A DNA stretch of 64,000 nucleotides from an uncultured Rhodopila sp. (GTDB lineage Bacteria; Pseudomonadota; Alphaproteobacteria; Acetobacterales; Acetobacteraceae): NCBI GenBank assembly GCA_903932145.1, contig CAIZFE010000109.1, forward strand, positions 1 through 64,000. Direction: 5' to 3'. The position numbers and the translations under genes were made by a program. The stretch's first letter is position 1; every line of letters starts with the position of its first letter. Positions 55,494 through 57,908 of the stretch are shown here, in pieces. A model generated the notes under the pieces. That model did not search any database. It saw only the letters and a program-made list of their open reading frames with translations, and was not told where the DNA came from.

Positions 55494-55850
55494 ATGGGTA
55501 TTCACGTTCACAATCTGTATTGCGATGCTAACGGCGAGTCTCACTGGCGTGACATCCAGATCGACTGGGCTCAGGAAGGACCGGAGGGCAAGACCTCCGC
55601 CCGTCAGCCCGTCAACGGCATCATCTTCCGCCAAACGCAGGCGGAGCACGATCGCCCCTGGCATCCGGCACCCCGGCGGCAATACATCATCAACCTCGAC
55701 GCGGGGGTGGAACTGACCGCCAGCGATGGCGAAGCCCGGGTTATCGGCGCCGGGGAGATCGTTTTGGTCGAGGACACCTCCGGCAAGGGCCATTTGTCCA
55801 AGTCGGTCAACAACCAGATGCGGCACTCTATTTTCGTGCCGATCGAATAA
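55494..55850 (+). CDS. Cupin-like protein, copy 1
   Basis: This 118-aa protein, MGIHVHNLYCDANGESHWRD..., has the beta-barrel core WHPAPRRQYIINLDAGVELTASDGEARVIGAGEIVLVEDTSGKGHLS and ends MRHSIFVPIE. It looks like a single-domain cupin, but the metal-binding His set is incomplete (HPAPR, HLS). It is a clear paralog of the next gene. GAGGGAAGCC lies upstream of ATG 55494. Located after the Tat hydrolase, it probably acts in the same pathway in the cytoplasm. Confidence 0.72.
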   Translation: MGIHVHNLYCDANGESHWRDIQIDWAQEGPEGKTSARQPVNGIIFRQTQAEHDRPWHPAPRRQYIINLDAGVELTASDGEARVIGAGEIVLVEDTSGKGHLSKSVNNQMRHSIFVPIE

Positions 55851-55863
55851 GGAGAAACGAAAT

Positions 55864-56214
55864 ATGCGTATTCATAACATCTATGTTGATGACGCCGGCG
55901 AAACACACTGGCGCGATGTCGAGGTCGAGTGGGTCGAGGAACGCAACGGCAGCAAGCTGTCGGCACGCCTGCCCGCCACCGGCATCATTTTCCGCGAAAC
56001 CGGCGGCGACTATGACTTGAGCTGGCACCCGGCCCCGCGGCGCCAATACATCATCAACCTGGATGGTGGCGTGAAAATCACCGCCAGCGACGGCGAAGCG
56101 CGTGAAATCGGCGCCGGCGAGGTTATCCTGGTGGAGGACATTCGCGGCAAAGGCCACCTGTCGCAATCGATCGGCGGCAAAATGCGGCACTCGATCTTCG
56201 TGCCGATTGAATAA
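55864..56214 (+). CDS. Cupin-like protein, copy 2
   Basis: This 116-aa paralog of the preceding gene begins MRIHNIYVDDAGETHWRDVEVEW and has the same core WHPAPRRQYIINLDGGVKITASDGEAREIGAGEVILVEDIRGKGHLS and the same end MRHSIFVPIE. The two copies differ mainly in the N-terminal half. AAGGAG precedes ATG 55864. Such adjacent duplication suggests a heteromer or two related ligands. A strong hairpin follows in the next gap. Confidence 0.72.
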   Translation: MRIHNIYVDDAGETHWRDVEVEWVEERNGSKLSARLPATGIIFRETGGDYDLSWHPAPRRQYIINLDGGVKITASDGEAREIGAGEVILVEDIRGKGHLSQSIGGKMRHSIFVPIE

Positions 56215-56261
56215 CGACACACCCTGGCGCCTGGATCGTCTGGCGGTCATAGCGCGAAAAA

Positions 56262-56289
56262 AAGGCCGGGGGATTGATCCCCCGGCCTT
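56262..56289. terminator. Bidirectional terminator, unit 1
   Basis: A perfect 12-bp stem (56262-56273 with 56278-56289) with a TTGA loop is flanked on the left by AAAAAA, giving a T run on the minus strand. It can end the small exported-protein gene on the minus strand and the cupin operon on the plus strand. Confidence 0.8.
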
Positions 56290-56311
56290 CTTGCTAAATG
56301 TTCGTAAAGGT

Positions 56312-56461
56312 TTAGCCACCGCCACCCATCAGGCTCGGGCCATTGTCGGAACCAGCCTGCCGCGTCGTCTGCGTGGCGCTGTACGGGGCAGCCTGCGCCA
56401 ACTGTGCAACACCAGCAGTCAGGCCCATTGCGACAACGGCTGCGAGGATCATGCTTTTCAT
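56312..56461 (-). CDS. Small exported DNGPSLMGGGG protein, copy 1
   Basis: This 49-aa frame, MKSMILAAVVAMGLTAGVAQ and then LAQA|APYSA, encodes a short signal peptide (cleavage after AQA) and a mature peptide of about 25 residues ending SDNGPSLMGGGG. ATG 56461 has GGAGAG upstream. The gene is too short for usual gene finding, but it has a paralog 359 bp away with the same signal-peptide style and the same C-terminal DNGPSLMGGGG, plus conserved upstream DNA and its own terminator. Function is unknown; secreted small protein or peptide precursor. Confidence 0.72.
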   Translation of the reverse strand: MKSMILAAVVAMGLTAGVAQLAQAAPYSATQTTRQAGSDNGPSLMGGGG

Positions 56462-56618
56462 CGGAACTCTCCATCAATCTTGTCGGGCGGAATGTCCGGC
56501 TTCGATGTCCTGAAAATAGGTCTGTGCACCCGGGATGATAATCCAGGCATTCGGCATTAGATTTATGCGTTAAGCAGAGCAATGAAGGGGACTTCTCCGA
56601 TGCACTTACAGACAACAA

Positions 56619-56644
56619 AAAGGCCGGGAGAATACCCGGCCTTT
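56619..56644. terminator. Terminator, unit 2
   Basis: A 10-bp stem (56619-56628 with 56635-56644) with a 6-nt loop is flanked on the left by AAAA, giving a T run on the minus strand. It ends the second small exported-protein gene. Confidence 0.75.
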
Positions 56645-56667
56645 CCGTTACGCGTTTCGAAAGAAGA

Positions 56668-56820
56668 TTAGCCGCCGCCGCCCATCAGGCTCGGGCCATT
56701 GTCACGCCCACCCTGTTGGGTAGAGGTCTGCGAACCCTGATAGGGAGCAGCCTGGGCCATCTGAGCGACACCGACGCTAAGGCTCAGCGCGGCGATGGCT
56801 GCAAGGAACATGGTTTTCAT
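56668..56820 (-). CDS. Small exported DNGPSLMGGGG protein, copy 2
   Basis: This 50-aa frame, MKTMFLAAIAALSLSVGVAQ followed by MAQA|APYQGS, has a mature tail of QTSTQQGGRDNGPSLMGGGG. The signal peptide and the C-terminal DNGPSLMGGGG match copy 1; the middle part differs (QTTRQAGS vs QTSTQQGGR). GGAGAA precedes ATG 56820. Upstream DNA (about 56821-56928) is also shared with copy 1. Confidence 0.72.
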   Translation of the reverse strand: MKTMFLAAIAALSLSVGVAQMAQAAPYQGSQTSTQQGGRDNGPSLMGGGG

Positions 56821-56966
56821 CGGAATTCTCCATCAATCTCGTCGGGCGGAATGTCCGGCTTCGATGGACGGAAGATAGGTTTATGCCGCCTGGATGATAA
56901 TCGAGGCATTTGGCATTAGATTTATGCGCCACTCGCGTCAATCGCAGCCCGGTCGCGCCTTGAAAC

Positions 56967-57908
56967 TCAAACCAGCCAGGTCGCCTCGTTCTCGCCCCAA
57001 GTTCGCCCGTCTTGCAGCCGCTGCTCCAGCAAGCGGAATTCCTCGACCAGGAAGTCGATCACCACGCGGGTTCGTTGCGCCAAATGCCGGCGGGACGGAT
57101 ACACGACGAACGCCTTTCTGCGGCGGGCCACGTAGTCAGGGAGCAGCCGATACAGCCGCCCCGCTCGGATTTCCGTCACCGTCAGCGGGTCGCCCAACAG
57201 CGCAATCCCGTATCCGGACAACGCCGCCTGCCGCACCACCAGACTGTTGTTCGACCGGAACGCACTCGTCACCTCGACCTCGACCGCGCCCTCGGGACCG
57301 GTAAAGGCCCAGTGATTGCTGTCAGGCCCGACCTCCTGGACGATGCAGGTGTGGTTCAGCAAATCGGACGGATGCGACGGGGCGCCGCGGCGTTCCAGAT
57401 ACGCCGGGGCGGCCACCGGCGCCGACGACATGGTCGTCAGGGCGCGAGACACCAGCGACGTATCCGCCGGTTGCTCGAACCGCAGCGCCACGTCCAACCG
57501 CTCGGCCACCAGATCGTCGGCGTATTCGCTGACCACCAGTTCCACCGACAGGCCGGGATGGCGGCTGACCAGCGCGGTGAAGTCCGTCACCAGCAGAAGC
57601 GCGGCACCCACCGGGACGCCGACGCGGACCAGGCCGGTCGGAGCGCCACCGTTCTTGCCGAACCGGTCCTCCAGATCCTCCGCCTGTTCCAGCAAATGCC
57701 GAGCGCGCACCACGAGATCCTGGCCGTCGTCGGTCAGGCTGAGTTTGCGGGTGGTGCGGTGGAACAAGCGGACGCCGAAATGGTCCTCCAGTTGCGCGAC
57801 CTGACGGGTCACGGCGGACTGGCTGGCGTTGCCCTCCCGCGCGACGGCGGAGAACGAGCCGGTCTCGACCACGCGGATAAAGGTGTGCAGCCCGTTGATC
57901 AGGTCCAT
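56967..57908 (-). CDS. LysR-family transcriptional regulator
   Basis: This 313-aa regulator has an N-terminal winged helix (1-60: MDLINGLHTFIRVVETGSFSAVAREGNASQSAVTRQVAQLEDHFGVRLFHRTTR) and a C-terminal effector-binding domain of two Rossmann-like halves. The gene lies 25 bp downstream of an M20 deacylase on the same strand, so it may be co-transcribed, with the acid or amide product as possible effector. It could also act on the divergent neighbours. Confidence 0.9.
   Translation of the reverse strand: MDLINGLHTFIRVVETGSFSAVAREGNASQSAVTRQVAQLEDHFGVRLFHRTTRKLSLTDDGQDLVVRARHLLEQAEDLEDRFGKNGGAPTGLVRVGVPVGAALLLVTDFTALVSRHPGLSVELVVSEYADDLVAERLDVALRFEQPADTSLVSRALTTMSSAPVAAPAYLERRGAPSHPSDLLNHTCIVQEVGPDSNHWAFTGPEGAVEVEVTSAFRSNNSLVVRQAALSGYGIALLGDPLTVTEIRAGRLYRLLPDYVARRRKAFVVYPSRRHLAQRTRVVIDFLVEEFRLLEQRLQDGRTWGENEATWLV

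Follow-up and report, generated by a model that had tools for sequence, protein, structure and literature searches.

The window analysed here, a 64,000-nucleotide stretch of an uncultured Rhodopila sp. (contig C109 of a 6.66-Mb genome in 115 contigs), contains two minus-strand open reading frames of about 50 codons with the same C-terminal sequence. Are such small frames genes, and, if so, what might their products do? Gene A (56668–56820, minus strand) was predicted from its reading frame, dN/dS and an AlphaFold2 model to encode a 50-aa exported microprotein, MKTMFL...AQA|APYQGSQTSTQQGGRDNGPSLMGGGG, with a putative cleavage site for signal peptidase I following residue 24 (placed by eye). Gene B (56312–56461, minus strand) was a 49-aa tandem paralogue of it. 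The first-pass annotation had described this pair, and it was found to be real: the start codons lay 359 bp apart, both frames ended in DNGPSLMGGGG, and both N-termini resembled signal peptides. The two proteins were 69% identical, and their genes differed by 20.3 synonymous and 17.7 nonsynonymous changes (dS 0.99, dN 0.18). The resulting dN/dS of 0.18 indicated that A and B were selected proteins, as the annotation had suspected; this was beyond what chance reading frames would give, and a paralogue elsewhere in the genome (C76) and a syntenic homologue in a related genome (G309) pointed the same way. In the AlphaFold2 model of A, residues 3–24 formed a helix followed by coil, at low confidence (mean pLDDT 56.9, five-row alignment). 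A Pfam scan of A and B gave no match, even at E 10 and including DUF4148.

The two genes shared their flanking signals, all on the minus strand. Upstream of A, pattern matching located an operator-like site (GCATAAATCTAATGC, 56913–56927) and, 11 nt past it, an ATTATC box resembling a −35 element (56896–56901); a hexamer TATCTT that may serve as the −10 element followed 18 nt later (56872–56877), and then a conserved 5′ leader block defined by family comparison (AAGCCGGACATTCCGCCCGAC, 56841–56861) and a putative ribosome site (GATGGAGA, 56827–56834). The corresponding elements of B were the operator-like site (GCATAAATCTAATGC, 56554–56568), the ATTATC box (56537–56542), the −10-like hexamer TATTTT (56513–56518), the leader block (56482–56502) and the putative ribosome site (GATGGAGA, 56468–56475). 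The ribosome site stood 14 nt before the ATG in both genes, the nearest 46 nt to the ATG were 96% identical and the next 64 nt 80% identical, and a GC hairpin with a T run, read by eye as a terminator, followed both A (56616–56641) and B (56256–56288), all of which agreed with the annotation.

Conserved homologues, on which the case for the pair had been made to depend, were present in relatives. Among 33 genomes of the Rhodopila/Acidisphaera S103 group, which the part of PMC7005127 available places in Acetobacteraceae, 17 yielded the 84 tiny exported-looking proteins that were retained. Members were found with a profile of three paralogues and a leader sequence model run over the 33 genus genomes, after which the open reading frames were read; weaker profile matches were left out, so 84 is a lower bound. 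The leader model alone matched 19 of the 33 genomes at E up to 0.01. Acidisphaera sp. S103 (G305) had 13 members, the MAG Rhodopila sp. RYN_443 (G312) 11, the genome of the window 6, Rhodopila globiformis DSM 161 (G300) 2 that were kept, and three genomes one each. A and B both carried the exact promoter core, the leader, the common signal peptide and the tiny reading frame that define the family. Full lengths ranged from 30 to 97 aa (median 50), and the predicted mature part, cut at residue 24 in most members, had a median of 26 aa. It was polar and near-neutral (mean net charge −0.19), G, A, S, T, Q and N made up 62% of it, and Cys occurred in 2 of the 84. A terminator-like hairpin followed 46 of the 84 genes, against 7 of 84 in shuffled sequences. 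In seven subgroups pN/pS was 0.20–0.43 in the first 24 alignment columns and 0.31–0.58 in the remainder, as pooled pairwise counts that ignore kinship and with column 24 not being the signal end in the YYQNNWMSG group.

Annotation often overlooks bacterial proteins shorter than about 60 aa. Scans of 72 members against Pfam and NCBIfam gave no convincing match (best E among the matches listed, 0.0088 in each), one protein query each against plasmid and phage collections gave no match, and family sequence strings were absent from the open literature searched, in which nothing was recognised as this family by title or opening of the abstract. A and B thus apparently belong to a lineage-specific, undescribed family in acid-living bacteria. 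Another tandem pair of tiny exported-looking genes, with a different payload type, was seen in genome G310 (L110, 2049–2174 and 2795–2920, plus strand).

The glycine-rich end of A and B had been suggested as a possible recognition or processing tag; as a general tag of the family it was not supported. Four more relatives were found in the same genome: C76 (51 aa, ending NNGPSEMGGGG) matched A and B by DNA (E 1.8e-11) and protein (E 4.5e-10); C48 (97 aa, L348 4114–4407, minus strand), a weak relative (E 0.185), had two PGLMGGGG motifs, both internal; and C80 and C42 ended in YYQNNWMSGR and DDQNNWMAAR. At least three terminal Gly were present in only 17 of the 84 members, the ends of the others being quite different, and among the members read an LMGGGG end occurred only in this genome and in G309 (as SGLMGGGG). 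The poly-Gly end is therefore not a universal C-terminal tag, and across the family the promoter and signal peptide are common to more members. A search for the SLMGGGG end in relatives, made as a GP-x-LMGGGG DNA pattern (up to one mismatch) in 299 family genomes, matched 18 genomes including the window's own; at the 17 other loci the frames proved larger or unrelated, and no tiny exported homologue was found in the other 298 genomes. A profile of the first three paralogues run against 249 family genomes gave four non-self matches, all rejected as partial (28 to 41 model positions) and in frames of at least 179 aa, and a genome-collection scan with three sequences gave 52 stretches, none of them confirmed.

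A more widely shared element lay upstream. The operator GCATAAnTCnnATGC (at most two mismatches in 12 specified bases) preceded 59 of the 84 members, and in 56 of these 59 ATTATC (at least four of six) stood 11 nt downstream, the best gap of 7 to 15 nt being taken and ties given to 11. The hexamer 18 nt past ATTATC was mostly yATcTn, and the leader core GCCGGACATCTCGCCCGAC (at least 15 of 19) was found in 51 members. Judged by its spacing, this arrangement looks like a sigma-70 promoter with an upstream activator site. When the promoter core was searched for with up to one mismatch in the 33 genus genomes, 48 sites were obtained, against none for a reversed-pattern control, and 45 of the 48 preceded a tiny exported-looking reading frame: 43 of the frames were members, another (at G312:C609) was a copy of L174 at a contig end, with 127 nt identical, and the last, at L175, was a 76-aa frame judged exported by eye. 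The three sites without a recognisable frame of this kind were L160, L161 and L176 (G301:C111, G313:C497 and G315:C71). Since the pattern was drawn from members, the search tested specificity and not sensitivity; the core was present in only 43 of the 84 members, 25 had no good operator and 33 no leader block (a few cut by contig ends), indicating that not all members belong to the regulon as defined. The six FSEI-type members of 76–81 aa (L113, L117, L164, L182, L183 and L184) kept the operator and had a different leader, and four of them carried a perfect ATGCTGC-N3-GCAGCAT palindrome within the promoter.

At up to two mismatches, three genomes gave 20 sites, of which 17 preceded members and three did not: L202 lay inside a gene body, and L208 and L210 preceded transporter-like genes (by eye); the switch may therefore serve more than the tiny genes. 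The L208 site (1501–1532, G305) stood between LysR-like and HlyD-like genes (by eye), which may hint at the class of the regulator. A collection of 84,980 species, scanned for the exact promoter, gave 79 stretches, 21 of them in records of the Rhodopila/Acidisphaera group. A filter for tiny exported reading frames, modelled on the family itself, was passed by 19 of these 21; the other two, L246 (cut off) and L249, correspond to promoter-core sites already found in the genus-genome scan. The 58 stretches outside the group, mostly from other phyla, yielded one spurious-looking 61-aa frame and otherwise nothing.

Behind this common upstream part and signal peptide the payloads differed. Their types, given as typical or composite strings, included FHNGSTVAGDAAATRMQQTGSYSQ, YDNTANSLGGRYVGGGD, YDNTANSLNRNVIGGQ, YDNTGNGPGETGLEGGGG, YYQNNWMSG, NNYNFMQGGGG and HSQMEGGG, and a longer FSEIYHGIFGH. 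Like payloads recurred within G305, where three members ended in LGGRYVGGGD and three in LNRNVIGGQ.

Payloads were then compared at fixed gene positions. Locus I comprised a gene for a LysR-type regulator upstream of A (56967–57908, minus strand; Pfam HTH_1 and LysR_substrate), the tiny genes, and a cupin-like gene on the other flank (55864–56214, plus strand; Pfam Cupin_2 at E 0.0059, below the Pfam cut-off). A second cupin-like copy (55494–55850, plus strand) was 64% identical to the first and had no Pfam match even at E 10; cupin-like relatives were present in 20 of the 33 genus genomes (E up to 1e-8), in many of them as a tandem pair. The window has two tiny genes at this position, and G309 has one (...NDSGLMGGGG) beside a LysR gene whose product is 94% identical over the 192 aa covered. 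In G312 and G313 the position is empty, with 116 and 6 bp between LysR (82%) and the cupin; in G305 the same cupin has a tiny gene for ...YDNTANSLGGRYVGGGD beside it, and the stretch contains no LysR. In the 15 remaining genomes with the cupin, the available stretch, which at least in G323 ends at the cupin, contained neither LysR nor any relative of A or B.

The neighbours at locus II were 67, 87 and 80% identical between the window's genome and G305, two of them being response regulators by eye, and the payload was ...NNGPSEMGGGG in the former (C76) and ...YDNTANSLGGRYVGGGD in the latter. Between the two genomes the promoter was 72%, the signal part 78% and the payload 49% identical, with shuffled signal DNA at about 45%. 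Within G305, by contrast, the locus II payload was 57–71% identical to payloads at six other loci, whose upstream DNA was only 32–51% identical; likewise, the C76 payload was 61–63% identical to those of A and B, against 41–45% for the upstream DNA. Promoter and payload here differ in their histories, and exchange or conversion of payloads between loci explains this best. Copies within one genome thus appear to exchange or convert payloads, as judged from pairwise identities, mainly at locus II. Four G305 members (L073, L076, L065 and L088) combined two payload starts with two ends (by eye). At a third site, with a GST-like neighbour by eye (L066 and L089), payloads were 50% identical and the promoter regions, at 51%, were not alike either; at other shared positions the payload was conserved (L086/L103, L098/L179 and L121/L123, 81–90% DNA identity).

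The best payload partner lay in the same genome for 24.5 of the 84 members (mean 6.3 and maximum 17.5 in 300 shuffles). A strict reading in which each genome has its own payload was weakened by the signal-peptide control of this test, which gave 19.7 of 84 (shuffled maximum 18.8), and by the FHNGST payload, present in nine genomes.

Neighbouring genes offered one candidate for a regulator. LysR copies also adjoined tiny genes in G318 and G321 (78 and 81% identical), where the two were divergent and the operator was absent from the tiny genes; in the window and in G309 they ran in the same direction. Since it adjoins tiny genes in two arrangements, the LysR-type protein is a candidate activator only. 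When 150 flanking open reading frames were compared with one another, 72 fell into 29 clusters, the largest of five and most of them syntenic copies.

Taken together, these comparisons suggest exported, disordered microproteins run largely as one regulon, whose copies exchange payloads, a reading that we consider evenly balanced between right and wrong; its envelope function is a guess. A typical member would be a single-gene unit made of the operator GCATAAnTCnnATGC, 11 nt, ATTATC, 18 nt and yATcTn, followed by a conserved leader of about 45 nt and a reading frame for a signal peptide and a short payload, often with a terminator behind it. These units, scattered through the genomes, would respond largely as one regulon; their products would be exported by Sec and presumably cut by signal peptidase I. 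What remains, in the periplasm or outside the cell, would be a soluble and disordered peptide, short (median 26 aa) and near-neutral. Copies would be gained and lost at fixed gene positions, their payloads being exchanged or converted within the genome, and the exported peptides would act in bulk. Several like payloads in one genome under one promoter fit a dosage effect, and we therefore favour bulk envelope microproteins first and peptide signalling second. It is proposed tentatively, as rather less likely than not, that under an inducing condition of some kind the bulk peptides protect or condition the cell envelope in these acid-living bacteria. Asr and YhcN are small exported proteins of the enterobacterial periplasm associated with acid or stress, and a link to acid or envelope stress through their NCBIfam models was not found, the matches being insignificant (Asr, E 0.045 in one of 72 members; YhcN, E 0.015 in two of 72, among the best 25 of 33 families).

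Secreted signals, in which trimming of the payload would release a short peptide that other cells sense, like the Phr pheromones of Bacillus, form the second explanation, which we regard as unlikely. In the part of PMC11343458 available, Phr propeptides of the Rap-Phr systems of Bacillota are short Sec-exported precursors with a conserved export part, a variable payload and sometimes tandem copies. Similarly, the tiny proteins are export-type precursors of about 50 aa with a conserved, signal-peptide-like N-terminus (by eye, and a predicted helix for A) and a variable payload, of which several types occur in one genome, and C48 contains two tandem copies of the end motif of A and B, as do some pheromone propeptides (PMC11343458, the part available). 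However, unlike RRNPPA/Phr systems, the family is alphaproteobacterial, has one promoter shared by many loci and is without known maturation, and no receptor gene recurs beside its members, the window neighbours being the LysR-type and cupin-like genes. No neighbour occurred more than five times among the 150 flanking frames when these were compared with one another, indicating that there is no common adjacent receptor. The recurrence of like payloads within one genome suggests dosage more than specificity, and the conserved stretches of some payload types exceed a 5–10-aa pheromone.

A further explanation takes the dispersed loci as recombining units with one promoter and export tag, between which payloads would pass; the payload shared within a genome would act as a lineage-specific password that some common partner, for instance a receptor or PDZ protease, reads. 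If so, copies in one cell would tend to share a payload and sister species would differ at the same position, and we consider this improbable. More improbable still are antimicrobial weapons against related bacteria. The proteins are small, exported-looking and different among related species, and one of 72 members weakly matched a YxzE-like putative bacteriocin family (Pfam, E 0.0088). Nevertheless, the mature parts are neither cationic nor Cys-rich but near-neutral and polar, as given above, purifying selection acts on the genes, and no neighbour that might confer immunity or transport recurred beside more than five of the 150 flanking frames, which were compared among themselves.

That the RNA matters instead of the peptide, the leader and terminator forming a regulatory RNA around an incidental reading frame, would agree with the 46 nt before the ATG being the most conserved DNA of A and B (96%), but is very improbable given the codon-level selection on the frame. 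The leader fold had no covariation either (four predicted pairs, no compensatory changes); Rfam at threshold found nothing in the leader region, the only hit in the window being a tRNA elsewhere, and a permissive Rfam search of seven loci gave four weak matches, from E 0.055 (suhB, the best) to 0.35. Least probable of all, the poly-Gly peptides might be ligands or regulators of a periplasmic HtrA-type PDZ protease, since an HtrA-like gene with PDZ domains (L348 2500–3984) follows C48, the gene with the two PGLMGGGG motifs, on the same strand after about 130 bp, but this is one locus, the C48 motif is internal and not C-terminal, and none of the 150 flanking frames of other members examined matched this HtrA (E up to 1e-3).

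Multi-copy small exported proteins exist in other bacteria, among them DUF4148 (PF13663) and similar proteobacterial proteins with several copies per genome. DUF4148 proteins resemble the tiny proteins in being short and carrying a signal peptide; the best match among 72 members was at E 0.012, 11 of the 72 matched at E up to 1, and A and B did not match. As these E-values came from short signal-peptide sequences, no homology is claimed. We know of no precedent among multi-copy small exported proteins for a single shared promoter together with payload turnover at fixed gene positions.

One promoter sequence thus predicts many tiny-protein targets at once, up to 13 in one genome, and payloads vary while the export tag stays constant, even within one gene position. 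This provides a direct handle on what small exported proteins do, in named carriers such as Rhodopila globiformis DSM 161 and Acidisphaera sp. S103. The leader model, applied more widely to 299 sampled family genomes, matched four at E up to 1e-4, two of them from other genera, where the three sites preceded open reading frames of 79 to 119 aa whose starts resemble signal peptides. At L188 (G150:C199), in another genus, a promoter-like block precedes a protein of 119 aa that looks exported and contains tandem repeats around NDARPYNQLADANQDGNPRLQLAE.
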